The notes under the pieces: model-generated
What the model was told of the DNA's origin: nothing
The model's input: only the letters and a program-made list of their open reading frames with translations
The model's database searches: none
Shown here: in pieces, positions 6,859-57,067 of the stretch
Position numbering within the stretch: position 1 is the stretch's first letter
Layout of the letters: each line of letters starts with the position of its first letter
DNA from: Chitinophaga pinensis
GTDB taxonomy: Bacteria; Bacteroidota; Bacteroidia; UBA4408
Length of the DNA: 59,757 nt
Reading direction: 5' to 3'
Assembly: GCA_945872355.1 (NCBI GenBank)
Contig: CAMBZU010000009.1
Span: 1-59,757, forward strand
Program-made: the position numbers and the translations under genes

Positions 6859-7593
6859 ATGGAATGGTTCGAAGATTGGTTTAACTCTGCCTACTATCAC
6901 TTGCTTTACAGCCATCGTGACGAGGAAGAGGCCAATCAGTTTATGCAAAATTTGTTGACTCAGTTGGCTCCAGTGCCTCAAAGCAGGGTTTTAGATTTAG
7001 CTTGTGGCAAGGGGCGTCACGCGCAGTTTATTGCTACAAAGGGCTATGATGTAATTGGTGTGGATTTATCTGAAAATAGTATTGCTGAAGCTTTGCAGAA
7101 AAGCACCGCTAACTTGCAATTTTTTGAGCATGATATGCGCTTTCCTTTTCGTATTAACTATTTTGATTTTGTTTTTAATTTATTTACCAGTTTTGGCTAT
7201 TTCATCAACCAACGTGATGAAATAAACACCATTAAATCAATTGCCTTAGATTTGAAACCTAATGGCATGGTAGTGATTGACTTTTTTAATGCAGCCAAGG
7301 TAGCTCAAATGACTGCCAATTACAGCGAGCAAAAGGTGATTGATGGTATTGAATTTGAATGGAAAAAAAGTATTGTAAACAAAAGTGTAATTAAAGAAAT
7401 TGATGTGAGAGATGCAGGTGTAGTGCATCATTACAAGGAACAAGTACGATTGTTGGAACTTATAGATTTTGAAAATTATTTTGTGCAAGCAGGTTTAAAA
7501 TTGATAGCCACTTTTGGCGATTACAGCCTCGCACCTTTTGATGTAAATACTTCTGAAAGATTAATTATGATAGCCCAAAAACAAACCATATGA
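6859..7593 (+). CDS. Class I SAM-dependent methyltransferase
   Basis: 244 residues with a Rossmann-type SAM site: motif I VLDLACGKGRHAQFIA near residues 44-58, followed by the acidic strand end VIGVDLS. The post-I and motif II region (EHDMRFPF, then FDFVFNLFTSFGYF) resembles small-molecule methyltransferases of the Methyltransf_25 type. The substrate cannot be told from sequence. It lies between ispE and a ZIP transporter gene and overlaps the latter by 4 bases (ATGA), indicating translational coupling. Confidence 0.85.
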   Translation: MEWFEDWFNSAYYHLLYSHRDEEEANQFMQNLLTQLAPVPQSRVLDLACGKGRHAQFIATKGYDVIGVDLSENSIAEALQKSTANLQFFEHDMRFPFRINYFDFVFNLFTSFGYFINQRDEINTIKSIALDLKPNGMVVIDFFNAAKVAQMTANYSEQKVIDGIEFEWKKSIVNKSVIKEIDVRDAGVVHHYKEQVRLLELIDFENYFVQAGLKLIATFGDYSLAPFDVNTSERLIMIAQKQTI

Positions 7594-8315
7594 ATTTGTT
7601 AGAAGCCTTTATTATATTTGCTTCTGCGGTGCTGAGCGGCATGCTGTTTTTTCTGTTTCCCTGGAACAGCAATAAATTAAAACTATTGCTTTCCTTAAGT
7701 GGTGCTTATTTATTTGCCATTACGGTGTTGCATTTAATTCCTGAAATATACTCTACTGGCGATCATTTGATTGGTATTTATTTATTGGCTGGTTTCTTCC
7801 TACAAATTATTTTAGATTATTTCTCTCAGGGTATAGAGCATGGGCATATTCATGTGCAACACCATCACGGCAAAGCCATTGTGCCTTTTACCATGTTGTT
7901 AAGTTTGTGTATTCACGCATTTTTTGAAGGCATGCCAGTGGGAGGAACGCACAATGAACACACTTCGGATATGCTGGTATTTGGGATTGTGATACATAAT
8001 ATTCCAATTGCTTTGGCTTTAATGAGTTTATTATCGCAAAGCGGTGTAGCAAAATCAAGAAGTATTTTATTGTTAAGCATTTTTGCCATTATGACGCCTT
8101 TAGGAATGCTCTTAAGTGCTTATTTAAGTCATGCACAAACAATTGATTTGAGTAGTTATTACCAAAAAATTATGGCGGTAGTGATTGGTATTTTCCTACA
8201 TATTTCTACTACGATATTATTTGAGTCTTCAGAAAATCACCGCTTTAATTTGCAAAAGTTTGGTGTGATTATTTTGGGGACCTTGATGGCGCTGGGAACG
8301 GTGTTTTTGTTTTGA
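7590..8315 (+). CDS. ZIP family metal transporter
   Basis: 241 residues and roughly seven to eight hydrophobic segments. A histidine-rich loop (HGHIHVQHHHGK, about residues 85-96) lies between membrane segments. The conserved ZIP metal-site segments IHAFFEGMPVG and VIHNIPIALAL follow, supplying the His/Glu and His/Asn ligands of TM4 and TM5. ZIP proteins import zinc or related divalent metals across the inner membrane. The start overlaps the stop of the methyltransferase by 4 bases. The metal specificity is not decidable here. Confidence 0.88.
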   Translation: MNLLEAFIIFASAVLSGMLFFLFPWNSNKLKLLLSLSGAYLFAITVLHLIPEIYSTGDHLIGIYLLAGFFLQIILDYFSQGIEHGHIHVQHHHGKAIVPFTMLLSLCIHAFFEGMPVGGTHNEHTSDMLVFGIVIHNIPIALALMSLLSQSGVAKSRSILLLSIFAIMTPLGMLLSAYLSHAQTIDLSSYYQKIMAVVIGIFLHISTTILFESSENHRFNLQKFGVIILGTLMALGTVFLF

Positions 8316-8354
8316 GTTGGTAATTCTAAAAACTCGATCATTCAAATTCTAAAT

Positions 8355-8376
8355 TCCTTGTTTCTTGTTCATTATT
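8355..8376 (-). repeat. Solo copy of the 22-nt repeat that flanks the four-helix-bundle gene
   Basis: The minus-strand 22-mer here is identical to the copy at 30379-30400, and the similarity continues a little on both sides (CATTCAAATT.TAAATTCC on the plus strand). It lies in the gap between the ZIP gene and the first LRR gene, without any adjacent four-helix-bundle gene. Confidence 0.65.
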
Positions 8377-8543
8377 AATAGGATTTAAAAGAAGAAACGG
8401 AATTTTACTTTAGAAAAAAATAATTTTATACTCTTATCTTAAAGTTCATAATTTATCTGACTTTTGTGACTGTGTGAGCATCATTTATAATACTATTTGC
8501 ACTTAAGCTCATTAACACCTTTTTCACCTTACTGTATTTTTTT

Positions 8544-8551
8544 TACCTTTG
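8544..8551 (+). promoter_or_regulatory. -7 box of the first LRR gene
   Basis: TACCTTTG is a perfect TAnnTTTG. It lies 17 bases before the ATG at 8569, giving a leader of about 14 bases. It argues against the longer in-frame TTG start at 8497, which would lie upstream of transcription. Confidence 0.55.
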
Positions 8552-8568
8552 GTAGAAATAAATCTCTT

Positions 8569-10686
8569 ATGAAAAAGTTTCTACTCTTTGCTTTTATTTT
8601 GTTTTGTTTACAATTTTTACCTGCAAAAGCGCAATGGGTAACAATACCTGATGCTAATTTTGCAACTAAACTTCAGCAACTCTATCCAACTTGTATGAAT
8701 GGGAATTTGATGGATACTACTTGTTCTGATATTGTGAATGCGACCTCTCTGATGGTCGGATACCTAAATATTGCTAATTTATCAGGAGTTGAATATTTTG
8801 ACAATCTAACCAATCTTTCGTGTTACAATAACCAGTTAACAAGCTTGCCATCATTACCACACAACTTAATAGACTTATGGTGTTATGACAATCAATTAAG
8901 CAATCTCCCCAATTTACCCGTTTCTATCACAAATATTCAATGTTACAATAATCAATTAACAAGCCTACCAAATTTACCCCCCAACTTAACGCAATTAACT
9001 TGTAATAATAACCAGTTATCAGCACTTCCTTTGTTGCCCGATTCAATAAATGATTTAGACTGTAGTTTTAATTTATTGACCTATCTTCCCCCATTACCTC
9101 CATTTGTAATGAATAATTTAATTATAAACGATAACAACATATCTTGCATCAATAACATCCCAATGTTTAATCTTTTATACAACTTTTTTCCGAATCCAAT
9201 TACATGTATACCAAATGAACCAGCGGTTCCACCTCTAGGTTTGCCTTTGTGTATGGAAAATGATCAAGTGAATAATCCAAATAATTGTCCTAGCAATTTC
9301 AATATATCAGGTAGTGTTTATAGTGATCAAAATGGAAATTGCATGTTCGATGCGACAGATTTGGGGAGTAATAATATATCAATCAGAATTTATGATTCTT
9401 CCAACATGTTAGTCGCTCAAACCTATTCAATCAATGGCGCCTATGGCTTTTCAATAAATCTACCAGGAATTTATAAGGTAAAGCTAGAGGGTATTAATAT
9501 ACCAATTGCAACAACTTGTGCCCAGGCAGATTCACAAATGGTAAATTTACTATCAATAAATAATTTTCTAAATAATATAGATTTCCCCGTAACATGTATT
9601 CAGGATTTTGACGCGTATGTTCATTCTGTTAATCCATTAGGCTTGGTATTCCCAGGTCAAACACATCTATTAAAAACAAACATTCCAAGCAACCAAGCTT
9701 GGTACAATTTAGATTGCGATACATCAAACAGTTCAGGTTCAGTTACAATAAATATCACAGGCCCCGTAACCTATGTTGCACCTGCAAACAGCGCTTTAAC
9801 ACCAACCGTAAATGGCAATACCTTCACCTACAACATCACAGATTTCAGCAACTTAACACCTCAATCATTTGGTCTTCAATTCCAAACCGACACCACCGCC
9901 CAAGCCAATGATCAAATATGTGTACACGTTGAAATTGATCCAACACCACTAGATGCAGATACTACCAACAATGTGTTTGATTTCTGCTACCAAGTCGTAA
10001 ACTCCTACGACCCCAACATGAAAGAAGTGTATCCTGTAAATGTATTACCGGGTTATGATGATTGGTTTACTTATACCATTCACTTTCAAAATACAGGCAA
10101 TGCACCTGCTTTTAATATTCGTTTGAGAGATACTTTAGATGCTAATTTGGATATCAATACTTTTGAAATACGCGGCTATTCGCATCCTGCTATTGTTTCC
10201 ATCAATGGAAATAATTTAACAGTAAGATTTAATAATATTATGTTGCCAGATAGTACATCTGATTATGAAGGAAGCATGGGTTATTTTCAATACCGCATCA
10301 AACCTTTATCCAACTTGCCTTTGGGCACACAAATAGCAAATACCGCTTATATCTATTTTGATTATAATGCGCCTATCATTACTAATACCACGCAAAATAA
10401 CTTTCAAACGGTGGTATCAACTTTCAATGGTAATGATGATACAAATCAATTAAAAGTATTTCCAAATCCAGCCAATGAAGTACTTAATATTAATCTTCAA
10501 AATAGTATGATAGAAAATTGTATCATCACAAATGCATTAGGCCAAATAGTACATAACAGTGCCAATGAAATCACTGCCAATCATAAAATACAACTTAATA
10601 TTGCTGATTTAAATGCGGGTGTTTATTTTGTAAAGGTGAGGGCTAGCAATGGTTCTTATAATGCTAAGTTTATTAAATCTGAGTAA
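8569..10686 (+). CDS. Leucine-rich repeat surface protein with T9SS type A sorting domain (paralogue 1)
   Basis: 705 residues. A signal peptide (MKKFLLFAFILFCLQFLPAKAQ) is followed by five or six LRR units of about 21 residues with the pattern LxCxxNQLTSLPxLP, the short bacterial type seen in YopM/IpaH proteins. Next come a Cys-containing beta domain (SGSVYSDQNGNCMFDATD, SpaA/Cna-like) and a DUF11-like domain (YTIHFQNTGNAPAFN). The end is a T9SS type A CTD beginning KVFPNPANE. The protein is expected on the cell surface or released, probably as a binding protein; the ligand is unknown. The C-terminal half is nearly identical to the next gene, whereas the LRR part differs. Confidence 0.85.
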   Translation: MKKFLLFAFILFCLQFLPAKAQWVTIPDANFATKLQQLYPTCMNGNLMDTTCSDIVNATSLMVGYLNIANLSGVEYFDNLTNLSCYNNQLTSLPSLPHNLIDLWCYDNQLSNLPNLPVSITNIQCYNNQLTSLPNLPPNLTQLTCNNNQLSALPLLPDSINDLDCSFNLLTYLPPLPPFVMNNLIINDNNISCINNIPMFNLLYNFFPNPITCIPNEPAVPPLGLPLCMENDQVNNPNNCPSNFNISGSVYSDQNGNCMFDATDLGSNNISIRIYDSSNMLVAQTYSINGAYGFSINLPGIYKVKLEGINIPIATTCAQADSQMVNLLSINNFLNNIDFPVTCIQDFDAYVHSVNPLGLVFPGQTHLLKTNIPSNQAWYNLDCDTSNSSGSVTINITGPVTYVAPANSALTPTVNGNTFTYNITDFSNLTPQSFGLQFQTDTTAQANDQICVHVEIDPTPLDADTTNNVFDFCYQVVNSYDPNMKEVYPVNVLPGYDDWFTYTIHFQNTGNAPAFNIRLRDTLDANLDINTFEIRGYSHPAIVSINGNNLTVRFNNIMLPDSTSDYEGSMGYFQYRIKPLSNLPLGTQIANTAYIYFDYNAPIITNTTQNNFQTVVSTFNGNDDTNQLKVFPNPANEVLNINLQNSMIENCIITNALGQIVHNSANEITANHKIQLNIADLNAGVYFVKVRASNGSYNAKFIKSE

Positions 10687-15385: not shown

Positions 15386-18300
15386 ATGGGCTCATTAAAA
15401 AACTTATGTACCTTTTTTTTGACTTGGTTTACTTGCATTTATACCTATGCAAATCATCCAAATAAAAATGAGCTGGCCATTACTAAACCGATATTACAGC
15501 TTAACTCAATTCAGTTTGAGGAAAACAAAAATCAACTTCCAAAACAAGTAAAATATAGTGCCCTGCTTTTTAGAGGAGCTAAGGTTTATTTCGAAAACAA
15601 TGCTTTTGTATATCAATTTTGGGATGCAGCTGCCATTGCAAACTTACATCATCCAACACATGATAAAACAACTACTGCAGCAATTGATGAGACACAAAAA
15701 GCGATCAACTTTTTTTCGTATCAAGCGCAATTTATTGATGCAAATCCGCAACCAGTAATTGAAGGCATTAATAAAGAAAAATGCTATAGGAATTACCTTT
15801 GGGGAAATGATAGCAGTCATTGGGCTTCAGAAGTAGCTGTTTACAATAGCATAAAATACAAATCGCTTTACAATGGCATTGATGTAGAAATTTACAATAT
15901 AGGTGAAAACATGGAGTACGATTATATTGTGAGCCCTGGAGCAAACATCAACGATATTAAAATTCAATATCAAGGCATTAATCGCATTAAAATTACCAAC
16001 GGAAATATTCAACTAAAAACAAGTTTAGGTGAAGTATCAGAAAGTAAACCTATCGCCTATCAATGGATTGATGGAAAAAAGTATATGGTAGCCTGCAATT
16101 ACCTTCTTACTAAAGAAAATATTGTATCATTTGAATTTCCTAATGGATATAAAAAAGAAATTGAGTTAGTGATTGACCCTACTTTAATATGTTCTGGATT
16201 CTCTGGATCAACAGCCGATAACTGGGCCTATACAGCAACTTATGATGCTGATGGCAATATTTTCTCAGGCGGCATTGTTACTGCAATTGGATACCCTACA
16301 ACCATTGGCGCATACCAAACTACTTTTGGCGGCGGTGGCAACGGAGGAAATAATTATCCATTTGATATTTGTATCACGAAATACAATCCAACAGGCAGTA
16401 GCATGATATTTTCTACCTATTTAGGAGGTTCAAACAACGAGCATCCTAGCAGTATATTTACAGATGCAGCAGACAATTTATTTATCTTAGGTAAAACTTA
16501 CTCTACAAACTTTCCTGTAACTGCTGGGGCCTACGACAATAGTTTCAACGGCAATTGCGACTTAGTTGTATGTAAATTAAATCCATCTGGCACTGCGCTC
16601 ATGGCCTCTACTTTTGTTGGAGGAAGTGGTGAAGATGGTGTAAATATTACTGCCAATTTCACTTTAAACGCATCACTTAAATATAATTATGCCGATGACA
16701 GTAGAGGAGATATTATGCTTGATGCTGCAGGAAATTGTTATGTATCCTCATGTACCAAATCAATTGATTTTCCTGCCACAGCGGGAGCTGCACAAAGTTC
16801 ATTTCAAGGAGGTGCTCAAGATGGCTGTGTGTTTAAAATGAGTAATGATTTGAGTACAATGCAATGGGCCACTTACTTGGGAGGTTCAGATGATGATGCT
16901 GCCTATTATTTAGATGTTGATCCTAATCAAAATGTATATGTTACAGGCGGTACATCAAGTAGTAATTTTCCCACAACTCCCGGTGCCTTTCATACTGTTT
17001 ACGGTGGGCAAATCGACGGTTTTATAACCCGTATTCAAAGCAATGGTTCAACTATTATGCAATCAACTTTTATTGGCACTGCCGAGTATGATCAAAGTTA
17101 TTTTGTTCAACTCGACAAGGACTTTGACGTTTATATTTGTGGACAAACAAAAGGACTCTATGGTACATCACCAGGGGTGTATAGCAATCCAAATAGCGGG
17201 CAATTTATTCACAAATTTTCTCCCGATTTAAGCACAAGCATATACGCTACAGTTTTTGGATCTGGTGCATCCTTGCCTAACATTTCACCAACAGCTTTTT
17301 TAGTTGACGATTGTGAGAATGTTTATGTATCTGGTTGGGGTGGACAATGCATTCCTTATGGAAATACTGGCGCTACCACGGGCATGCCCGTAACACCTGA
17401 TGCACAAAAAACAACAACCGACGGATGTGATTTTTATTTTATTGTACTTAAGAAAGATGCGCTTTCACTGTGGTATGCAACTTTCTTTGGAGGAGGAATT
17501 GGCACCGAGGAACATGTTGATGGCGGTACAAGTAGGTTCGATAAAAAAGGTATTGTATATCAGTCTGTTTGCGCTGGTTGCGGAGGAAATACAAATTTTC
17601 CAACAACGCCAGGGGTTTACTCTTCAACTAACAACAGTAATAATTGCAACATTGCCATCATTAAAATGGATTTTCAATTGCTTGATTTAGATGCTGATGT
17701 TACGGCTGCGCCTACCGATACAGTTTGTAGTAATTACCCTATTAGCTTTAACAACAATAGCACGGGTGCAACTTATTTTATTTGGAATTTTGGAGATGGC
17801 TCGCCACTATCGAATCTCCCAAACCCAAGTCATATATACAATACTTCAGGTATTTATACAGTTACCTTGATTGCAATAGATTCTACAAGTTGCAATTTGG
17901 CAGATACTTCAGCCATAGCTATTACAGTAATTATTGAACCTATTTCTGGTTTAGGTAATGATACTGTAATTTGTGGCTTGGCTAATATTCCAATAAATGC
18001 AGGCAATGCGGCCTATAGCTATGTTTGGAATACAGGTGAAACAAGCCCAATAATATTGGCCAACCAAACAGGTAATTATATTGTAACCATAAGCAATGAT
18101 TATTGCAATTTGATTGACACCATGAATATTAATATGATGACACTGCCACCTGTAGGAAATGACACTACTGTGTGTAAAAACAACTTAATTACACTTAATG
18201 CAGGCAATCCTGGATGCACCTATTTGTGGAGCACAGGAGAAACAACACAAACCATTAATGCTAATTTTTCGGGAACCTACTGGGTAATGGCCATGGCGGG

Positions 18301-19051
18301 TAATTGTACTAAAATTGACAGTATTAATATTATTTATTTACCACTCCCACAATTTGATCTAGGCATAGATACCATTATTTGTCCGGGTGATATACTGCAA
18401 CTCAATGCCGGAATTAATGGTCAAACATTTCTTTGGAGTACAGGAAATACAGGACAGTTTTATGACGTTACAGAAACAGGTATTTATTGGGCAGAAGCCT
18501 ATGGTGGGGCTTGCAGTTACAATGATACTATTAAAGTTGACTATTACCATCAACCATTTTTAGGTATTGATACAGTAATTTGCAGTCATAATAAATTTAA
18601 ATTAGACCTTAGTTTTTCTGATCCTGGCGGAACTTACCTTTGGAATACAGGCGCAACAACTTCATTTTTAGATGTGTTTCTGCCAGGTACCTATTCAGTG
18701 ACGCTCACTTACAAAAATACCTGCCAATTATACGACACCATATATGTTGCAGCTTTTGAAGATGACCCACCTTTATTTATTCCGAACAGCTTTACACCAA
18801 ATGGTGATGGCCTCAATGATATATTTAATCCGGCAGGAAATTATGAAAGTATAGTTGATTTTTATATGGCCATTTACAATAGATGGGGGCAAATGATATT
18901 TGAAACACGCGATAGAAATAAAGGCTGGGATGGGATTGTAAATAATGAAATAGTGCAGCTAGGAGTGTACGTTTATAAAGTTGATTACAGAAGTTACTGT
19001 GCACCTGATAAAACAATCAATCAAATAGGACACATCGTAGTTTTACGTTAA
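15386..19051 (+). CDS. SBBP/PKD-repeat surface protein with T9SS type B (CHU_C) C-terminus
   Basis: 1,221 residues with a signal peptide. The first ~270 residues form an N-terminal domain common in this class (ENKNQLPKQVKYSA, then YDYIVSPGANI). SBBP-type beta-propeller repeats follow (ISTYLGG/WATYLGGSDDDAA-like units, about residues 280-770), then a PKD domain (NFGDGSP near residue 808) and several Ig-like repeats with the core YLWSTGETT. The end is the gliding-type domain beginning IPNSFTPNGDGLND, the signature of T9SS type B sorting, in which the protein leaves through the T9SS and is held at the surface, often with PorP/SprF-like partners. The ligand is unknown. Confidence 0.88.
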   Translation: MGSLKNLCTFFLTWFTCIYTYANHPNKNELAITKPILQLNSIQFEENKNQLPKQVKYSALLFRGAKVYFENNAFVYQFWDAAAIANLHHPTHDKTTTAAIDETQKAINFFSYQAQFIDANPQPVIEGINKEKCYRNYLWGNDSSHWASEVAVYNSIKYKSLYNGIDVEIYNIGENMEYDYIVSPGANINDIKIQYQGINRIKITNGNIQLKTSLGEVSESKPIAYQWIDGKKYMVACNYLLTKENIVSFEFPNGYKKEIELVIDPTLICSGFSGSTADNWAYTATYDADGNIFSGGIVTAIGYPTTIGAYQTTFGGGGNGGNNYPFDICITKYNPTGSSMIFSTYLGGSNNEHPSSIFTDAADNLFILGKTYSTNFPVTAGAYDNSFNGNCDLVVCKLNPSGTALMASTFVGGSGEDGVNITANFTLNASLKYNYADDSRGDIMLDAAGNCYVSSCTKSIDFPATAGAAQSSFQGGAQDGCVFKMSNDLSTMQWATYLGGSDDDAAYYLDVDPNQNVYVTGGTSSSNFPTTPGAFHTVYGGQIDGFITRIQSNGSTIMQSTFIGTAEYDQSYFVQLDKDFDVYICGQTKGLYGTSPGVYSNPNSGQFIHKFSPDLSTSIYATVFGSGASLPNISPTAFLVDDCENVYVSGWGGQCIPYGNTGATTGMPVTPDAQKTTTDGCDFYFIVLKKDALSLWYATFFGGGIGTEEHVDGGTSRFDKKGIVYQSVCAGCGGNTNFPTTPGVYSSTNNSNNCNIAIIKMDFQLLDLDADVTAAPTDTVCSNYPISFNNNSTGATYFIWNFGDGSPLSNLPNPSHIYNTSGIYTVTLIAIDSTSCNLADTSAIAITVIIEPISGLGNDTVICGLANIPINAGNAAYSYVWNTGETSPIILANQTGNYIVTISNDYCNLIDTMNINMMTLPPVGNDTTVCKNNLITLNAGNPGCTYLWSTGETTQTINANFSGTYWVMAMAGNCTKIDSINIIYLPLPQFDLGIDTIICPGDILQLNAGINGQTFLWSTGNTGQFYDVTETGIYWAEAYGGACSYNDTIKVDYYHQPFLGIDTVICSHNKFKLDLSFSDPGGTYLWNTGATTSFLDVFLPGTYSVTLTYKNTCQLYDTIYVAAFEDDPPLFIPNSFTPNGDGLNDIFNPAGNYESIVDFYMAIYNRWGQMIFETRDRNKGWDGIVNNEIVQLGVYVYKVDYRSYCAPDKTINQIGHIVVLR

Positions 19052-22321: not shown

Positions 22322-22476
22322 TTAGTCGCAAACCCATCCTGAAAAAATAAATTGAGTACAAGCCAATAATAAAAAACTAATTATTTCATCACTAACTTGA
22401 AATATTTAAGGCTTGATGTAAATTTTATACACCTGTTTATCAATTAATTAAGTTTTTTTTAGATACATTAATCGCT

Positions 22477-22499
22477 TATACATAATTTTCTTATGTATA
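22477..22499. promoter_or_regulatory. Candidate PadR operator: 9-bp inverted repeat over the promoter
   Basis: TATACATAA (22477-22485) and TTATGTATA (22491-22499) are perfect inverted repeats with a 5-base spacer. The right arm overlaps the -7 box at 22496-22503. Dimeric PadR regulators bind such ATGT/ACAT-containing palindromes and often repress their own operon, so autoregulation is inferred. Confidence 0.6.
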
Positions 22500-22503
22500 T
22501 TTG
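22496..22503 (+). promoter_or_regulatory. -7 box of the PadR operon
   Basis: TATATTTG is a perfect TAnnTTTG. It ends four bases before the ATG at 22508, the same geometry as at pyrE, implying a leaderless or nearly leaderless transcript. It also means the in-frame start at 22493 is unlikely. Confidence 0.6.
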
Positions 22504-22507
22504 CCTT

Positions 22508-22843
22508 ATGTATTCATCAGAGCTAATTAAAGGCACTTTAAAAACTGTTATTTTAAAACTGTTAACCGACACTAAACAAATGTATGGTTATGAGATTACA
22601 CAAAAAGTAAAAGAGTTAACCAACGCTAAAATTGTTATCACCGAAGGTGCACTTTATCCTTTGCTTCATCAGCTGGAAGCCGAGGGTGTGGTAACAACAG
22701 AAACGGTTAACATTGGCAAACGAATAAGGAAATACTATACGCTAACTCACACCGGAAATGAGCGAGCTAAGGAAAAGATTTACGAATTTGCTGATTTCAT
22801 TCAAACCATGAATATTTTACTTGATCTTAAACCAAGCATTTAA
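22508..22843 (+). CDS. PadR family transcriptional regulator
   Basis: 111 residues from the chosen ATG. The winged helix-turn-helix shows all family marks: ELIKGTLKTVILKLL, MYGYEITQKVKEL, EGALYPLLHQLEAEGVV and the wing RKYYTLTHTG. The short C-terminal helix mediates dimerisation. It is followed after two bases by a membrane protein gene, the common arrangement in which a PadR repressor controls a membrane protein in its own operon. An inverted repeat covers the promoter. Confidence 0.92.
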   Translation: MYSSELIKGTLKTVILKLLTDTKQMYGYEITQKVKELTNAKIVITEGALYPLLHQLEAEGVVTTETVNIGKRIRKYYTLTHTGNERAKEKIYEFADFIQTMNILLDLKPSI

Positions 22844-22845
22844 TT

Positions 22846-24099
22846 ATGTTAAGTTTAACAGAAGAACAGATTGCCTTTATTGAAAACGATATCAGGGTTA
22901 GGGGAATCACATCTCCTGACCTCAGTATCGATCTGCTGGATCACATATGTTGTTTAATTGAAAATGAACTCGATGAATACAGGAACTTCGAGACTGTATA
23001 TCAACAAACACTTTTGCTTTTTGGAGAAAAAGGGTTGAAGGAAATACAAGAAGAAACAAATCGACTACTCACATTCAAACACTATTATTTTATGAACACA
23101 ACAATGAAAATTTCGGGTTATGTATCGTCATTGATGATATTAATAGGATCAATATTTAAAATCCAACACTGGCCCGGTGCAAATGTGATGATACTTGTTG
23201 GCGTATTTTTCCTAACAGTATTATTCTTACCTATTTTATTTATTCTCAAATTTAAATCAACAGATGAAAACAACAGAAGTATTGTTTTAAGTATCGTTGG
23301 ATTTATTGCTTCCATTCTTGTTTGTGCTGGCATATTGTTTCGCGTTTTGCATTGGCCTGGCGCTAGAATGATTATTATCTCTGGCTGTTCATTACTTATT
23401 TTGGGATACTTGCCTATTTACATTTTAAGTATTTACAAAAACACCACAAATAAGATGAATGCAACTGCCACGATCATTTTAATTATTGCTGGTGTAGGTT
23501 TATTTATTTCTGAATCGGGCACTGGCCTCTCAAAAACAACCTCTGATAGTTTTTGGAGAGGGGTAACAGATAGTGATGATTTACTTCAATACAACAACAA
23601 AGCAATTAATAAGAATTTTGAATTGATGTTCAAAAAGCACGCTGCAGATTCAGTAAAGCTGATACAATTAAAGGACCTGCAGGTGGCCACTGACAGCATG
23701 ACGAATTACATTAGTAAAATGAAAATTTATTTAATTTCAGTCAGTGAAGACATCACAGAGCAGCAAGCAGAAAAAATAAATATAGATGATTTACGCACAA
23801 GTGGAGGTAATAATTTTCTTACCGAAAGATTACTTAACGATGAATATGCTCAATTCACATACACTGCTAAAAAATTGAAATCGAAAATAGAAGCTTATAA
23901 GCAAACCTTAAAAAAGTGCTTCCCAAATGTTGACTTGAGCAATTTGAACACGGAACAAATTACTGTATATGGAGAACAAGTAAGTTGGGAAGTTTCAAAT
24001 TTCGAAAAACTACCAATATCATTGGTGATCTATAATTTAATTAGAATTGAATTAGCCATTCAAGCCGCAGAAACTGCTACAATTAACGCTTTGCAATAA
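22846..24099 (+). CDS. Membrane protein with HAAS-like N-terminus and two GldL-like HWPGA motifs
   Basis: 417 residues. Residues ~1-80 are a soluble helical domain (SIDLLDHICCLIENELDEY, then LLLFGEKGLKEIQEET) that resembles the HAAS/permease-prefix domains often paired with PadR regulators. Four to five membrane segments follow to about residue 225. Two of them carry a repeated motif, IFKIQHWPGA (about 102-111) and LFRVLHWPGA (about 164-173), closely like the FKIxHWPGA signature of the gliding/T9SS motor protein GldL. The last ~180 residues are a charged, helical region. Too long and too different to be GldL itself; function unknown. Confidence 0.8.
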   Translation: MLSLTEEQIAFIENDIRVRGITSPDLSIDLLDHICCLIENELDEYRNFETVYQQTLLLFGEKGLKEIQEETNRLLTFKHYYFMNTTMKISGYVSSLMILIGSIFKIQHWPGANVMILVGVFFLTVLFLPILFILKFKSTDENNRSIVLSIVGFIASILVCAGILFRVLHWPGARMIIISGCSLLILGYLPIYILSIYKNTTNKMNATATIILIIAGVGLFISESGTGLSKTTSDSFWRGVTDSDDLLQYNNKAINKNFELMFKKHAADSVKLIQLKDLQVATDSMTNYISKMKIYLISVSEDITEQQAEKINIDDLRTSGGNNFLTERLLNDEYAQFTYTAKKLKSKIEAYKQTLKKCFPNVDLSNLNTEQITVYGEQVSWEVSNFEKLPISLVIYNLIRIELAIQAAETATINALQ

Positions 24100-24227: not shown

Positions 24228-24725
24228 ATGAAAACCATTTTAACTTTATTATTTTGCCTCGCAATTGGCAGTTTAACTTTTGCTCAAAAATGCGCATTTA
24301 CTTTTGAAGAAACAGATAGTAAAACAGGCTTACAAAAAAAACGAATTATGACCGCTATAACAAATCAATTTATAGTTTGGACCATTAAAGACGGAGAGAA
24401 TTATAGAATTGGCTTAGAAATTACTATGGCTGAATTGCAAAAAAACAATATTCAAAAAGGCGATACTTTAAGCTTTTTATTGACGAACAATGAAACCGTT
24501 AACGGAATTGCTGAAGACAAATATTTACCAATTGGCAAAGCCGATGAGATGACCGAATCGAGCAATTATTTTCCATTTTATTCAGTTTCAGCAAGCGAGT
24601 GGTTAAAGCTTTGTGCTAATAACATGCAATACATTAAAGTCAATTTAGGAAAAGAGTATATAGGCTTTGAAGTGAATGAAGGCAAGGCAAAAAAAATAAA
24701 GGCCGCTGCTGTTTGTGTAAAGTAA
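24228..24725 (+). CDS. Small secreted protein of unknown function
   Basis: 165 residues with a clear signal peptide (MKTILTLLFCLAIGSLTFAQ). The mature part is strand-rich with two cysteines (KCAF and AVCVK at the ends), which might form a disulfide. I do not recognise a domain. No T9SS sorting sequence is present, so a periplasmic location is most likely. Confidence 0.65.
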   Translation: MKTILTLLFCLAIGSLTFAQKCAFTFEETDSKTGLQKKRIMTAITNQFIVWTIKDGENYRIGLEITMAELQKNNIQKGDTLSFLLTNNETVNGIAEDKYLPIGKADEMTESSNYFPFYSVSASEWLKLCANNMQYIKVNLGKEYIGFEVNEGKAKKIKAAAVCVK

Positions 24726-24736
24726 ATACTAGTCTT

Positions 24737-26485
24737 ATGATTTTCATTGAAATTATACAATTTTTTGTAGGAAAGAGAAACTTAGCTTCCCGAAAGGCTT
24801 TTTCAAAAAGGGGAATTTTATGTGCATTAATCATTTTCAATACTTTTATCAGTTCGGTTTCAATGTCACAATCATTTCTCTCGGCTAAGTTTTATTCAAG
24901 TTCTGCTAGCAGTTTCATTAATGATATTGTAAGTGACAATTCGGGGAATACTTTCAGTACTGGCTTTTTTTATAATAATATTAGTTTTGATAGTATTACC
25001 CTCGCTTCTAATAGCAATAGCTCAAATGGATTTCTGATAAAATCTGATGGACAGGGAACTTTGCAATGGGCTGTATCAATGAGATCACCATCAATGCAAT
25101 CAAATGCTATTGAGATAACATTAGATGGTTCTCTTTATGTTGCAGGATGGTTTAAAACAAAATTAATTATAGGCAATGATTCAATTGTATCTACTAGCCA
25201 AAACAATACTTTTATTGCAAAATTTAGTAATTCCGGCAATCTACTTTGGATGAAACATTTTAATGGTGCAGGTGTCCCTTCATCACAAAGAATGAATATC
25301 AACAATCTTACAAAAGACAATCAAGGAAATATATACTATACTGGTTATTTTGAAAGCCAAATTATATTTCAAAATACAACACTTACTTCATCTGGTACTA
25401 GCGATGGTTTTTTTGGTAAAATTAATGCTTCTGGCAATTCTATCTGGTTTAAAAAGTTTGGGGGGAACTACAGTGGTACATGTGGTTTACCAAATAATGA
25501 CTCAGGAAATAGTATTTTTATTGACAATTTAGGCAATCTTTTCCTAGCAGGGCATTATGCATTTAATTTTAATTTAGGAGGACAAACTTTAACTGGAACA
25601 AATGATATTGACTCATTCTTTGCAAAGGCTGATACCTCAGGCAATATTGATTGGATAAAATCAATAAATGGCAATGGAGTTCAAACAATTTCCAGTATTA
25701 CGGCAGATGCTTTGGGCAATCCTATACTTCTATTATCCTTTCAATTAAATTGTTACATAAATGGTGACACTTTGCAATCAAATACTCAATTTGGCTCGCC
25801 ATATGATTTTGTGATACTTAAATACAACTCATCTGGTAATATTATATGGTATAGACAAGAAGGTTATACTGCTGGGAATGACAATATTAAAGTTGCTGTT
25901 TCTGACAATAGTGGAAATATTTATATTTACGGAAATTTCGCCGACAATACCGAAATCTGTGATAGCTTGCTTACCACTTATCCAAATTGGACCGATAAAA
26001 TATATGTTGCCTCTTACAATTCGAATGGGAATCCAAATTTTGTAGTTCAATGTGGCGGTCAACGTAATTATCCTGGTGGTATGACACTTAACCAAAATGA
26101 AGATATTATTTTAGCAGGATGTGCTGAATTAGGCACTTTTTCTGGAATTAACTTTGGAGCATTTTCCTGTAATGAGCCTGGTACTTTTCATCCTTTTATA
26201 GTAACTCTTGAGAACCCGACATTAGGTGCTGGAATTAAATTTAAATCTAAATCAGAACCTTTTACAATATTTCCTAATCCAACATGTGAAAATGTAAATA
26301 TCATTTTTGATTCAAGTTTATCAAAATTAAGTTATTCTATTAGTGATAATACAGGAAGAATTTGCCTCTCTGGAACATTAACTTTAGAAAATAAAATAAT
26401 TGATTTGAGGAATTTAGCTCAAGGGATTTATATATTAAGACTTGAAAATGACATGAAGCAGGCTTATAAAATAATTAAGCTTTAA
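24737..26485 (+). CDS. Beta-propeller-like secreted protein with T9SS type A sorting domain
   Basis: 582 residues from the ATG at 24737. A long n-region precedes a hydrophobic signal (GILCALIIFNTFISSVSMSQ). The body consists of SBBP-like repeats with the rhythm DNSGNxxxTGxF...F, then GNLLWMKHF, consistent with a beta-propeller. The end has the T9SS type A CTD (FTIFPNPTCENVNI, ending QGIYILRLEN). The signal start is uncertain: an upstream in-frame TTG at 24713 overlaps the previous gene and is less likely. Probably a surface protein; ligand unknown. Confidence 0.78.
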   Translation: MIFIEIIQFFVGKRNLASRKAFSKRGILCALIIFNTFISSVSMSQSFLSAKFYSSSASSFINDIVSDNSGNTFSTGFFYNNISFDSITLASNSNSSNGFLIKSDGQGTLQWAVSMRSPSMQSNAIEITLDGSLYVAGWFKTKLIIGNDSIVSTSQNNTFIAKFSNSGNLLWMKHFNGAGVPSSQRMNINNLTKDNQGNIYYTGYFESQIIFQNTTLTSSGTSDGFFGKINASGNSIWFKKFGGNYSGTCGLPNNDSGNSIFIDNLGNLFLAGHYAFNFNLGGQTLTGTNDIDSFFAKADTSGNIDWIKSINGNGVQTISSITADALGNPILLLSFQLNCYINGDTLQSNTQFGSPYDFVILKYNSSGNIIWYRQEGYTAGNDNIKVAVSDNSGNIYIYGNFADNTEICDSLLTTYPNWTDKIYVASYNSNGNPNFVVQCGGQRNYPGGMTLNQNEDIILAGCAELGTFSGINFGAFSCNEPGTFHPFIVTLENPTLGAGIKFKSKSEPFTIFPNPTCENVNIIFDSSLSKLSYSISDNTGRICLSGTLTLENKIIDLRNLAQGIYILRLENDMKQAYKIIKL

Positions 26486-34165: not shown

Positions 34166-36916
34166 TTACTCTAAAACAATCAGTTTGCTTATCTCCTCCT
34201 GTTCAAAATTTATTTTAACATAGTAGGTTCCTTTGGGCAAATTGTTTAAAACGATTTGAAATGTGTTTTTACCTTGACCAAAATTCTTTGTTAGCATTTC
34301 CTGCACCTTTTTACCCATAGCATCAAGAAGTGTAAATGATACCTTTTGCTCTCTACTATTTTCAAACTCAATATTACAAATATCCTTTGTAGGATTTGGG
34401 AATATGCTAACCGTACTTGCATTGTCAATTTTCTTAATATTGGTGAGGTTTGGCAACTGATCAACATTTTTAATATAGGCAGAATACATACCTGCAGCAT
34501 GCGTTGCCACTAACAATCTTCCATCATTTTCTCTGTAATCAAGCATAGAAACAACTATTTTACCTATATCATTGGCTGCTAATTGTATCCAAACTGTATT
34601 TGCAGAATCAAGATTTACGGTACCATATAAACCGGTACTAGTTCCTAACAAATAAGCCGTTCCACCTTGCGGAGGATGTATAATACTTGCCCATCTTATG
34701 CTTGAACCATTTCCTGAACCTGAGGTATTTTGTTCTAAATTACCTGCCACTTTTCTCCAGGTATTACCTCCATTGGCTGAATAGTAGAGGCTGTATATCG
34801 AATAATTTGAAAATACCACCAGCACTTTATCAGCATCTTGAGGATCAACAGCTATACAGTTTACATTACCATTCGCTGGGAAGCTATTAGGAGCAGTATT
34901 ACCTGAAATATCAACTGGGGTTGGCGTACCAACATCTGCATTATCTATGCGATAAACTCTTTTTTTACTTGTTCCATAATAAACCCTATTTGCAGGTGTT
35001 TTTGAAACACCTATGGCTGTAATTTCAGCACCTGAGAGAGGCACAGAATCAGGCCAATGCACCCAATTCGTGCTTATAGAATCCCAATTGTTAATCATTG
35101 GTATGCCGCTTAAATCTGTATTTTTCCATAAATATTTACCACCAGCCAAATACATTATGTTATTATTGTTTGGATCTAATGTAAACGGATTTATAAACTG
35201 ATAACCCTTTCCATCGGCAGGGTCTATTCTGGCAAAAGAGGTTATAGTTCCGTTATTATCAACATTAGCTTTCATCATTTTACCATTTTGAATAGAAAAG
35301 TAATAAGCGCTTCTACCATCTGCAATAGCGCAAAAAGAGCCATCGCCACCTCGAGGTGTAACCCATGGATTAGTTAACACTGTGTCATTTGTAAACCAAG
35401 AACCATTGTCTTGTGCACCTCCTATTACTACTTCATTTCCGGGTGTACCATGGTCAATAGCCAAAGTATAAAACATAGTGGTGAGGTACCCATTGTTTAA
35501 AGAAGTCCATTCCATAGTATCTTGTAAACAATTATCTGTTTTAAAAACACCACCATCATTGCCACTCAACATTTTATTTGGATTGGAAGGATAAAACAAA
35601 ATTTCATGTTGATCAGGATGATGATTTTGATAAGACAAAACGACTGGCAACGTAGCACCTTCTTCATAACCGCCCACAAATTTGTTGGTTGAAGGATTTG
35701 CAAAACCATTGGTTGATCTATACAAATTGGTTCCTCCAATGAATACAACATTCGGATCATCTGGCTTAACTTTTAATACAAGATCGTAAGAACCTTGGCA
35801 TGAAAATTTATCAAACGGACCGCCTGATGTGGGCAAACTATTACTCAAATCTTCCCATATTCCTCCAGCACTATCACCATTACCTGAAATGTAAGTGTAT
35901 TTCCATAAACTATTCCACTCAACATTACCTAAATAATTTGTATCGGGAGTGCCAAAACCCGGGGTATTGCCTAAAAAATAAACAATATTTTCGTTGGACG
36001 GCGCATAGCCAGAAACTATTCTATCATAAGTAGTTGCAAAGTTTGGAGGTGTAATATTGGTGTAATTTACACCATCGGCAGAACGATATATCCCTTTAGT
36101 TGCTCCACCATCACTGCCGAGTGTAGCGTACAATACACCATTGGGTGTGATATTTAAATCGGTGTAAAATGAATTCCCATTTCCTCTTACCATTGCCCAA
36201 GTTGTGCCCCCATTTGAACTTTTATAAATTGCTCCATAGGTAGAGGCAAATACTACATCGTTTACTGTATCTGATGGATAGGCCAGCACTCTATAAATCA
36301 CATCCCAATTGCTATCAAAACTTTGAGGTGTATTTGGTGCCGTGCCTGTGAGTTTACTCCATGTTAAACCATTATCAATAGACTTATACACCCCATTGCC
36401 TGAATAAAAAGCACCGCCCGCACTGGCACTGCAATATGGATCTCCCGAACCAAAATACCACACATTTGTATGGCCAGGTCTTTTATCTTGCGCAATACAA
36501 GTAATTCCATGATAATCGTCTTTTTGTGTAATCTGTGTCCATGTTTGGCCAGCATCTATTGAACGCCAAACGCCACCTGAATTTGTTCCTGCCATTATCA
36601 CATTTTCGTCATTCACATCCATTGCAAGCGCTCTCGTTATTCCTCCTACATTGTACGGTCCTCTGGGATGCCAATTTACATTTTCAGCCCTGTTATTAAA
36701 CTGATTATCGCTTGGCAAAGTAGAAGAAAACATTAACTCACGCTCTCTGATACGTGCAGGTATTTTACCTGTTTCAGGGTCGGCAAGTCTTTTTAATTCC
36801 CAAGCAGAGCGCCCTTTAGGATCATCGGGTGAAGCCAATGGTGAATTATTTTGAGCCACCGCATGCAAGCCTAAAAGGCTAAAAGCTATACCTAAAATTA
36901 TATTGTAATTTTTCAT
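34166..36916 (-). CDS. BNR/sialidase-type repeat surface protein with T9SS type A sorting domain
   Basis: About 916 residues from the ATG at 36916, which begins a good signal peptide (MKNYNIILGIAFSLLGLHAVAQ); an in-frame ATG lies five codons upstream. Asp-box repeats (WRSIDAGQTWTQI, YKSIDNGLTWSKL, YKSSNGGTTWAMV) identify a VPS10/sortilin- or sialidase-like beta-propeller. No catalytic sialidase site is evident. The C-terminal T9SS type A domain begins SIFPNPTKDICNI. The protein is likely on the cell surface or released. It is separated by 41 bases from the upstream gene on the same strand. Confidence 0.87.
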   Translation of the reverse strand: MKNYNIILGIAFSLLGLHAVAQNNSPLASPDDPKGRSAWELKRLADPETGKIPARIRERELMFSSTLPSDNQFNNRAENVNWHPRGPYNVGGITRALAMDVNDENVIMAGTNSGGVWRSIDAGQTWTQITQKDDYHGITCIAQDKRPGHTNVWYFGSGDPYCSASAGGAFYSGNGVYKSIDNGLTWSKLTGTAPNTPQSFDSNWDVIYRVLAYPSDTVNDVVFASTYGAIYKSSNGGTTWAMVRGNGNSFYTDLNITPNGVLYATLGSDGGATKGIYRSADGVNYTNITPPNFATTYDRIVSGYAPSNENIVYFLGNTPGFGTPDTNYLGNVEWNSLWKYTYISGNGDSAGGIWEDLSNSLPTSGGPFDKFSCQGSYDLVLKVKPDDPNVVFIGGTNLYRSTNGFANPSTNKFVGGYEEGATLPVVLSYQNHHPDQHEILFYPSNPNKMLSGNDGGVFKTDNCLQDTMEWTSLNNGYLTTMFYTLAIDHGTPGNEVVIGGAQDNGSWFTNDTVLTNPWVTPRGGDGSFCAIADGRSAYYFSIQNGKMMKANVDNNGTITSFARIDPADGKGYQFINPFTLDPNNNNIMYLAGGKYLWKNTDLSGIPMINNWDSISTNWVHWPDSVPLSGAEITAIGVSKTPANRVYYGTSKKRVYRIDNADVGTPTPVDISGNTAPNSFPANGNVNCIAVDPQDADKVLVVFSNYSIYSLYYSANGGNTWRKVAGNLEQNTSGSGNGSSIRWASIIHPPQGGTAYLLGTSTGLYGTVNLDSANTVWIQLAANDIGKIVVSMLDYRENDGRLLVATHAAGMYSAYIKNVDQLPNLTNIKKIDNASTVSIFPNPTKDICNIEFENSREQKVSFTLLDAMGKKVQEMLTKNFGQGKNTFQIVLNNLPKGTYYVKINFEQEEISKLIVLE

Positions 36917-36957
36917 TTTATAGAACATCATTTTAATAAGTAAAAATAGTAATCGTT

Positions 36958-43179: not shown

Positions 43180-43902
43180 GTTTTAATTTTTTTACAAACA
43201 TATCATATAATTTACACCCAAAATATATCATTAAAATAAATTAATGAACAGATGATAATTATTTATTACAATTATTCGTTTTTGTGGCATAAAAATAAAA
43301 TTTAAATCACACTTTATGCTTAGGAAAACAAATTTTCTTTAGCCAAATCAATTGCATAAACACAAGATCTCTTTCTAAATCAAAATAACAGAGGAGCATT
43401 GCCTAACCTTCAAAAGCATTGCAATTCAATCCATCCCAACGTTTCTGATTTTAGTGAGCGTTTGATCGAAACATATATTAAAGCTGAAAATAATCATAAA
43501 ATCATTCACAAAGTCATTTGGAGCTTCTGCATCATTCATTCGTTTGAAGGATTAAAAAAGAATCGCAAGCTAGTATTTTCATTCTCCGTTATTCCCGTTT
43601 AAAATAATGTTAAAATGATTAAAATCAGCATCCTAATTTTGAAAAATCAACATGTTAAGTAGCAGAAAAACAGAAATTTGGTTTATTTTAACTAATAAAA
43701 CTATGTTAATTATTCGTTAAATAAATGTTGATTATTTATTTTCAAAAAATCACTTTGCCCACTCTATCTAGCTTTAAAAACAAGAATTAGTATATACATT
43801 GATCAAAATTAAAAATAAATACTTTTTTTAATGCCTAAATTAAAACTAATCACTTATTTTTGCGTATTAAAGGCAAAATTACACTCACAAAAAATTTACT
43901 TA
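43180..43902. other. Gene-poor 720-base gap before the giant gene
   Basis: No convincing gene. A short open frame (43399-43602, TTG start with GAGGAG nearby) encodes 67 residues without recognisable features. A TAATTTTG box at 43634-43641 and the box at 43855-43862 are the only regulatory-looking elements. The rest is AT-rich. Confidence 0.4.
43855..43862 (+). promoter_or_regulatory. -7 box of the giant T9SS gene
   Basis: TATTTTTG followed by C is a perfect -7 box 40 bases before the ATG at 43903. It makes the upstream in-frame ATG at 43831 unlikely, since that lies before the transcription start. Confidence 0.55.
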
Positions 43903-46900
43903 ATGGCAATTTTCTATCTTAAAAAGAAGCAAAACACTAAATTCAATTGCTCTATTAATAATTTTCTATTTAGTGCTAAAGGCATTATTCCAAGTTTATT
44001 ATTATTTATTCTATTAATTTCTGCTACAACTGCACAAGCACTTAATGTTTTTTCGGTTGCAACAGGAAATTGGAATTCAACCGCTACTTGGTCAAGTACT
44101 TCAGGCGGTGCGCCGGGTGCTGCAGTACCAGCGGTTGGAGACAATGTGTTTGTAGAAGGAGGATTTAATGTTACTGTGAACGTTAATACAGCTGCACTCA
44201 GCAGCGTTTCAATTGCAGCTGCAAGTACCTTAAGTGGGTCAGCTGCTTTTACTGTAAATGCTACTACAATCAACGTTAACGGAACATACAACAACGCCAG
44301 CACGGGAGCAATTACTTTAACCACAATGAATGTAAATGCTGCTGCAACTTATATTCATGCAATCAATGGTGGAACTATTCCAACTGCCACATGGAATGCA
44401 ACTTCTAATTGCAATATCACGGGTATTACTACAAATGCTCCTGCTGGCCTTGGGCAAACTTTTGGGAATGTAATTTGGAACGGGGCAATTCAAACTGGTG
44501 TCAACATAAGTATTGGTGCATTAACTAACATAGTAGGTAACTTTACAGTTACTGCAACATCTGCAGGCTCAATAGCTCATGCCAACGCAAGCCCAACTTC
44601 ACTTAATGTGGGTGGTAATTTCACTATGAATGGAGGTACATTTAGAGGTGCAATTGGTGGTGCTGGAAATAATTTTACATTAAACATTTCAGGTAATTAT
44701 ACGCAAACTGGAGGAACATTTGATTTTGGGTCAGGACTTGGTATAACAACAATGAACTTAAATGGAAATTTTTCAAATACCGTAGGTACTTTAACAGAAA
44801 CAGGTACTGCTACAACCAATATAATTAATTTCACAAAATTAGGTGTCCAAACCTTTACCAGCGGAGGGACAGTTTCAAATATTATTAATTACACAGTAAA
44901 CGCAGGAAGCACTTTGCAAATGGCAGTTGTTGGAACAACAGTGAATGGAGCAGGAACTTTTACCTTATCCAGCGGAGCCACATTAGGCGTTACTTCAACA
45001 AATGGAATTGTATCGGCTGTTGGCACAGCCTCAGGTAATATACGTACTACAGGAGGAAGAGTTTTTAGTGCAGGCGCAAGTTATATTTACAGTGATGCTG
45101 CAGGCAATCAGGCAGTTGGCACAGGGTTAACACAAAATACGCCTTTAAATGTTACAATCAATAACCCTGGGTTTATTGTTTCTTTAGGAGCTGCAGGAAC
45201 TGCAACAACAATAACTGGTTTACTAACAATGACTGCTGGAACACTAAACATGGCTGACTTGGCATTAACTGTTGGATCACTATCAGGCACAGCAAATATT
45301 ACTAACACAACAGGAGGTACCAATGCAAGGACAGTTACCATAGGGAGTGATAACACTTCAAGTTCATACTCAGGCATCATCAGTAATGGGACAAATACTG
45401 GTGGTGTTTCCATAACTAAACTTGGTACAGGAACATTAAGCTTAAGTGGAACAAATACTTATACGGGTGTTACAACAATAAATGCAGGAGTTTTGAGTGT
45501 TGCAACTATTGAGAATGGCGGAGTTGCAGGTAATTTAGGTCAAGCAACAAATGCAGCAGCTAATTTAGTTTTAGGGGGAGGAACACTTCAGTACACAGGA
45601 TTAACAGCAGCTACGAATAGAGCCTTTACATTAACGAATGGAACTATATCTACAGTAGATGTAAGCAGCAATACATTAACAATGTCGGGCTTGAGTGCTA
45701 CCACAAGCGGCGCCTTAGTAAAAGAAGGAGCAGGTAGTTTAACATTATCTGCAGCCAATACCTTTACAGGAGGTTTTACATTGAACACTGGTACAGTTAA
45801 TGTCAACAATCCAACATCGTTAGGCGCTGTGGCAGGAACGCTTACTATTAATGGAGGTGCTATTAATGCCTCGGCTGTTACTACTATTGTCAACTATCCT
45901 AAGATAATAAATGCGAGTTTTGTAACTGGTGGTAGTTTTTTAGGTTTGGGTTCGGGAAGCACCACTATAAACGCTGATATAACCATTACTAATTCAAATT
46001 CTTTATTATTTAATGCTGGAACTATTTCTGCTCCAACTAGAAGTATCATAAAAAGTGGTGCAGGTTCGCTTTCTTTTGGTGCCTGCATTGTTGAACTTAA
46101 CAATTTAACCATTTCCATTGGCACACTTGTTGGCACATCAAACAATACTACTTTAAATGGCACATTCACTAACAACGGAACATTTAATAATAATGCAGGA
46201 ACAGTTATTTTCAATGGAGTAGGAACTATTGCAGGCTCATCAACTACTACCTTCAATAATTTAACATTAAATGGAGCAACAACAGTTACACCTAATGCTA
46301 TTATTAATGGCACCTTGATTTTAAATGAAGGTGCTGCTATTGCCAGTGGAGGAGTTACCTTTGGAGCTGCTGGAATTTTGCGTTACAATGGCACAACTGG
46401 TTTTACCACTACTGATGCCGAATTTCCATCTGCATCAGGGCCATTAAGCGTTATCATCAACAATTCAGGACATGTAACTTTACATGCCTCTCGATCTCTT
46501 GCATCAACCGGTATTTTAAACCTTACAAGTGGTAGGTTTATTTTAGGACCCAATAATTTTACAATTAACAACCCCGCAACGGGAGCAATTTTTGCTGGTG
46601 CTGCATTCAGTGCAACTAACATGGTGCAGGCCGATGGCAATGGTGAACTTATAAGAGCTTCACAAAACGCAGTTAGTTATACCTATCCAATTGGAGATGC
46701 CATAGGCACTATTGATTATTCGCCGGTGGTATTGGCATTCTCAGTAAATGCAACATTAAGAAATATTGGGGTAAAGGTTGTAAATAGTGCACACCCGCAG
46801 GTGGATAATACACCTGTGCAAACTGATTACTTAAATAGATATTGGAAACTAAGCAATAGCGTTGCAGCTGGTACTTATACCTACACTGCTACATTTACAT

Positions 46901-56989: not shown

Positions 56990-57067
56990 ATGCATCAATC
57001 ATCTTTAAATAGTGATAGTGCAAAACAGATTTATTTAAAAAAATATTTTCCATTAAAAAAAACAGAG

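Follow-up and report, generated by a model that had tools for sequence, protein, structure and literature searches.

A GldL-GldL-GldM(D1) fusion behind a PadR repressor gene in Chitinophaga pinensis, a candidate motor-derived signalling module

Why should a segment characteristic of GldL, from the proton motor of gliding and the T9SS, occur twice in one membrane protein encoded directly behind a PadR repressor gene? The question is posed by a gene at 22846..24099 (+ strand) in the 59,757-nucleotide stretch of C. pinensis DNA analysed here (the window). The gene encodes 417 aa, and its ATG at 22846 follows the padR stop codon (22841-22843) after two bases, just as an earlier note, made from the sequence, had placed the open reading frame and its PadR neighbour. 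Pfam, profile, AlphaFold2 fold and profile-profile matches give the protein a five-part layout: an N-domain, a GldL hairpin, a second GldL hairpin, a GldM helix and GldM domain D1. Since a standard gldL and gldM pair is found separately on contig C25 of the same genome, the fusion is a paralogue. The reading we favour, with a probability of roughly 60%, is a single-chain, non-rotating module derived from the motor, which signals across the membrane within a PadR circuit that regulates itself. A search of open-licence PMC literature for GldL-GldM fusions with PadR or SpoIIE found nothing.

Two GldL-type hairpins and a GldM-type half

Hairpin 1 (TM1-HWPGA-TM2, residues 84-137, 23095..23256, + strand) is recognised by Pfam, alignment, structural model and profile-profile comparison, and hairpin 2 (TM3-HWPGA-TM4, residues 143-195, 23272..23430, + strand) by the last three of these. 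Their motifs are FKIQHWPGA (residues 104-112) and FRVLHWPGA (residues 165-173). GldL_N (PF22827, curated Pfam cut-off 24 bits) matches the fusion in two stretches at 3.6e-9 and 37.1 bits. In profile-profile comparisons of 56-residue segments against 21 canonical GldL proteins, hairpin 1 scores a probability of 98.8% and hairpin 2 of 98.6%, against 0.13% for unrelated membrane segments used as a control; the two hairpins match each other at 99.5%, closer than either is to canonical GldL. A 19-row family profile finds solved GldL (7sau_C, 1.4e-4) with hairpin 1 and PorL (7sat_C, 0.004) with hairpin 2, and H108, H169, W170 and P171 are invariant in that alignment. The earlier note's observation of two hairpins with a near-GldL first-helix signature is thus borne out by motifs, Pfam and profiles together. 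The whole-GldL equivalog TIGR03513 scores the fusion at 22.1 bits, below its cut-off of 68.3, and the fold search with the AlphaFold2 model matched GldM/PorM chains, with no GldL chain among the matches listed.

What the earlier note had called a long helical tail is a GldM half that it overlooked. GldM_1st (PF12081, cut-off 25 bits) covers residues 243-416 at 3.8e-10 and 40.5 bits. A GldM-type transmembrane helix (residues 200-224, 23443..23517, + strand; AlphaFold2 model and fold match) leads into the periplasmic domain D1 of GldM/PorM (residues 230-417, 23533..24096, + strand). In the AlphaFold2 model, D1 (residues 230-417) aligns with PorM 7cmg_A at Z 19.8 (rmsd 2.0 over 174 residues), and helix plus D1 (residues 202-417) with GldM 7sau_A at Z 19.5 (rmsd 5.0 over 203); D1 matches to GldM/PorM overall range from Z 15 to 20. 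The 19-row family profile likewise finds solved GldM (7sau_A) at 9.4e-12. The full-length GldM equivalog TIGR03517 gives 21.6 bits against a cut-off of 180, and the fusion stops after D1, with no D2-D4. The whole model has a mean pLDDT of 80.2 and a pTM of 0.49, at which its helix packing is only provisional. By analogy with GldLM, D1 would lie in the periplasm, the N-domain in the cytoplasm, and the HWPGA loops outside. The N-terminal PRQKM motif arginine, Arg9, matters for GldM. It is R in 18/18 canonical GldM proteins and in 1/16 fusions, with two more gapped, in a region where the alignment is uncertain.

Forms related to this one vary in length. At E<=1, all 19 aligned family members match GldL_N and 13 of them match GldM_1st; the other six give no GldM_1st match, and one- or two-hairpin forms without D1 also occur behind PadR, so D1 is dispensable in some family members. 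Another form behind PadR (L045) carries GldM D2. Three proteins of 155-193 aa (L052, L053, L054) have two HWPG hairpins, no GldM part and, in the stretches read, no adjacent PadR. The earlier note named, as what would refute it, a motif spread through unrelated Bacteroidota membrane proteins that bear no structural likeness to GldL. Only half of this applies: hairpin-only proteins do exist, but the hairpins of this family are homologous to GldL. On the minus strand of locus L039 (G004:C2), PadR precedes a three-hairpin GldM fusion of 479 aa (8410-9849), and next comes a GldM fusion of 319 aa with two hairpins (7425-8384). A heterodimer of the pair would contain five hairpins for two GldM helices, matching the 5:2 ratio of the motor. 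We do not take this as a stoichiometry for the family: it is a single case, and the three-hairpin forms at L046 (at a contig end) and L167 have no partner in the stretch read. At two other loci (L041, L042), two-hairpin GldM fusions of 350-361 aa sit beside a gene whose start resembles, by eye only, that of a PorP-like gene near gldLM (L035:386).

Loss of the essential TM2 glutamate and the question of rotation

In GldL of F. johnsoniae, E49 in TM2 is described as strictly conserved and essential, and E49A abolishes function; E59 is required for gliding (both from the available text of PMC8986121). The position is E in 21/21 canonical GldL proteins from the genomes fetched. In the fusion it is occupied by L123 in hairpin 1 and by L184 in hairpin 2. 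An equivalent glutamate appears in 0/72 hairpin matches from 41 family proteins; 47 have Leu, and two of the 72 (at L049) are spurious. Furthermore, TM4 ends at residue 195 and the GldM-type helix begins at 200 in the AlphaFold2 model, a linker of four residues that would prevent rotation of the axle helix within the ring. That GldM rotates at all is still a hypothesis (PMC9389320, as far as its available text goes), so what we infer from the tether is provisional. With E49 lost from the family hairpins and the ring tethered to the axle, rotation of the fusion is implausible.

These findings bear on one alternative, that the fusion is another functional proton-driven motor, made as a single chain. 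Its hairpins are similar to those of GldL, and it retains both the GldM helix and the K105/H108 pair; every family hairpin read, on the other hand, is missing the E49 equivalent whose substitution by alanine inactivates GldL, and the modelled chain would tie ring to axle covalently. We reject this motor reading and regard it as extremely improbable. The missing proton residue suggests instead that the fusion probably relays signals across the membrane rather than turning. The earlier note had spoken of a regulated motor-like or membrane-sensing component; the GldL link, the PadR control and the membrane-sensing half of that description fit what is found, while the motor-like half gives way to the leucines and the tether.

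A quieter role at the motor would be as a modulator, in which the fusion mixes with normal GldL or GldM (D1 dimerisation being one route) and acts as a brake on the T9SS/gliding motor or tunes it. The D1 fold is common to the fusion and GldM, and canonical GldL was also matched in all 26 listed fusion genomes except one that is 72% complete (G058). This co-occurrence says little, because canonical GldL is present in 95/100 relatives regardless of the fusion. The fusion is missing the periplasm-spanning D2-D4; one genome (G065, 95% complete) has a phosphatase-bearing (PP2C-type) fusion and no GldL match; and in two congeners (G001, G003) the motor is present without the fusion. We therefore consider a modulator quite unlikely. 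The comparison with GldLM/PorLM (7SAU, 7SAX, 7SAT, 6YS8) is in any case one of shared parts, namely GldL-type hairpins, GldM transmembrane helix and D1 fold, in a different arrangement: the fusion is one chain, lacks E49 and E59 as well as D2-D4, has no gldK or gldN beside it, and carries two hairpins per GldM helix where the motor is described as 5:2 (available text of PMC8986121 and PMC9389320).

PadR linkage, predicted operator and N-domain

The gene before the fusion, padR (22508..22843, + strand), encodes a PadR-family repressor of 111 aa (PF03551, 3.6e-20, 72.2 bits against a cut-off of 27). Its start is probably at 22508, where the family start MYS/MIYS falls, rather than at the mechanical ORF start of 22493. 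The linkage extends far beyond this genome. PadR lies immediately upstream on the same strand at 35/37 loci that have the N-domain, the GldL-GldL-GldM (LLM) module and room upstream; of the two exceptions, one (L155) is the second gene of a tandem pair and the other (L166) has PadR one gene further up. The same search returned 46 N-domain matches without the LLM module, 20 of them with PadR directly upstream; the remainder includes many that are short partial matches or lie further along tandem arrays. Of 395 genomes in the class, at least 44 carry relatives of the fusion, under 13 family labels, counting those whose match spans model position <=25 to >=290 (of 343) among the matches listed. 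(A query with P0001 against the genome contigs returned no relative; the genome search is the one that found them.) In its own genus the fusion is patchy, present in the window's genome and in congener G002 and absent from G001 and G003. In a tree of D1, a branch with SH-aLRT 94 sets canonical GldM apart, and the window protein groups with the PadR-type rows; the tree has many long end branches, and its split of the PP2C types into two lineages is unsure.

Upstream of padR is a perfect 8-bp inverted repeat, ATACATAA-N5-TTATGTAT (22478..22498, unstranded), which we predict to be the PadR operator from its conservation. It overlaps TATATTTG (22496..22503, + strand), which matches the Bacteroidota -7 promoter consensus TAnnTTTG. 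In a survey of 25 loci, padR could be located in 21, and the best site at the padR promoter has 0 mismatches in 8 of these, 1 in 6, 2 in 3, 3 in 2 and 4 in 2, i.e. 0-2 in 17/21. A TAnnTTTG-like box, under a pattern that admits TTCG/ATTG variants, lies 18 bases past the start of the best site, or at 18 plus a multiple of 15, in 18/21 loci. Half-sites in the window (TTATACAT, TTATGTAT and TTATGTAT) recur every 15 bases over 22463-22513, the last spanning the padR start codon, and several other loci have additional upstream half-site repeats in the same 15-base register.

The site at 22478-22498 is the sole 0-mismatch operator in its genome, and the genome scan found no 0-1 mismatch operator elsewhere in it; sites with <=2 mismatches number 3, fewer than the 11 per strand of a reversed-pattern control. 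Control of T9SS genes by this PadR is rejected on the same scan. Across the 26 fusion-bearing genomes, the matches listed comprise exact sites in 10 genomes and sites with one mismatch in 6, all of them at this promoter, and two-mismatch sites are about as frequent as in the reversed control. Because near-exact operators are listed only at the padR promoter, the main target of PadR repression is most likely its own operon. The Listeria repressors LstR and LltR follow the same logic, regulating mainly their own operons, which include multi-spanning membrane proteins (a DUF1700 membrane protein in the case of lltR), in another phylum and with other partners, DUF1700 and FtsW/RodA-like (PMC6624303, in its available text).

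The N-domain (residues 1-82, 22846..23091, + strand; alignment, model and PadR linkage) would lie in the cytoplasm and be the part that contacts PadR. The earlier note called it HAAS-like, a description that survives in context and fails in sequence. HAAS (PF22564) has 0 matches in 23 N-domain members at E<=5 and none in the window's own genome, so that membership by sequence is rejected. Its AlphaFold2 model (pLDDT 77.9) has no clear PDB match, the best Z of 6.3 not being meaningful; HAAS structures are absent among the fold matches, which excludes nothing. The contextual likeness to the HAAS-PadR systems of PMC11237479, as its available text describes them, is a standalone PadR whose neighbouring membrane protein has a small helical domain at its N-terminus, and a further use of that domain to head an FtsX/MacB permease, just as the present N-domain heads a MacB/FtsX permease behind PadR at one locus (L084). 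A sensor part derived from GldLM is not among the HAAS fusions given in that text. An Asp-His-x-Cys motif is conserved, with D32, H33 and C35 invariant in 23/23 aligned members (residues 32-36 of the fusion, 22939-22953), and could bind metal or sense redox.

Phosphatase-fused relatives and a proposed signalling role

The signalling reading draws on relatives in which the output domain has been swapped for a SpoIIE/SiaA phosphatase. Eight frames of 689-762 aa (L036, L037, L038, L150-L154) all match the phosphatase part of L036, which served as query and so is counted among the 8/8. Pfam SpoIIE is above cut-off in five of five PP2C-type fusions scanned, and the one member scanned against the SiaA model NF038263 (L036) matches at 2.1e-48, below the model cut-off of 700 bits. 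A SiaC gene is nearby in 2/8 of the PP2C-type loci (L036, L037). A SiaB-like neighbour (L036:7974) has no Pfam or NCBIfam match, and we therefore make no claim of SiaB for it. These proteins are comparable to the SiaA-type PP2C phosphatases of SiaABC systems, with GldL-GldL-GldM(D1) as their input domain; the window fusion, in contrast, has no SpoIIE/PP2C domain by Pfam. The PP2C-type loci have no adjacent PadR among the neighbours listed, and the N-domain is absent from them. For that reason, a function shared by the PadR- and PP2C-type modules is something we infer. At a further locus (L161), a free-standing PP2C gene follows a gene for hairpins plus a tail, which resembles the module of the window protein at 2e-14 and has no Pfam match at E<=0.01.

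An autoregulated membrane effector is a competing account of the same operon: PadR would itself sense a small molecule, and the fusion would be made in response and act on the envelope instead of signalling. The confinement of the listed 0-1 mismatch operators of the 26 genomes to this one promoter fits it, and Listeria PadR systems do carry effector genes in their own operons (available text of PMC6624303). The fusion of the same module to SpoIIE/SiaA phosphatases, however, is a signalling layout, and the N-domain is also found on the permease of L084, which makes the account somewhat unlikely. Even so, the circuit may merely set the amount of an effector, since its sole strong operator is the fusion's own promoter.

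For the signalling module that we prefer, a mechanism can be proposed. A change at the membrane or in the periplasm would shift the conformation of a D1-paired dimer; the GldM part would mediate dimerisation, as it does in GldM itself, and couple such changes to the N-domain. The altered N-domain would contact the neighbouring PadR and release it. PadR would ordinarily repress its own promoter through the operator over the -7 element, and the signal would lift that repression, giving more PadR and more fusion. In the PP2C-type sister proteins, the module would instead control how active the phosphatase is. Candidate inputs are the state of the membrane or envelope, the proton-motive force and a periplasmic ligand. 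A broader and rather tentative possibility is that the 5:2 rotary-motor core has been recruited for membrane sensing in general: a single chain would lock ring to axle, the proton glutamate has been lost, and the module would convey the state of the inner membrane (e.g. proton-motive force, or periplasmic pH via the retained Lys/His pairs in its periplasmic loops) to interchangeable outputs, PadR circuits or SiaA-type phosphatases. If the signalling module is real, a rotary-motor core has been reused for signalling, and annotation has missed a transmembrane input module of Bacteroidota. The fusion would be a natural single-chain, rotation-locked GldLM, whose structure could reveal how GldL and GldM helices pack. 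A GldL_N or GldM_1st match alone is no proof of a T9SS motor.

Seven proteins encoded in the window have a T9SS sorting domain (Por_Secre_tail or CHU_C) at their C-terminal end, at 8497-10686, 15386-19051, 24713-26485, 34166-36931, 43831-53610, 54600-56663 and 56990-59446, and one of them is a protein of 3259 aa with PATR repeats. The gene that follows the fusion (24228-24725) encodes a predicted secreted protein of 165 aa, whose one relative among the fetched loci (61% identity) occupies the equivalent position in congener G002.
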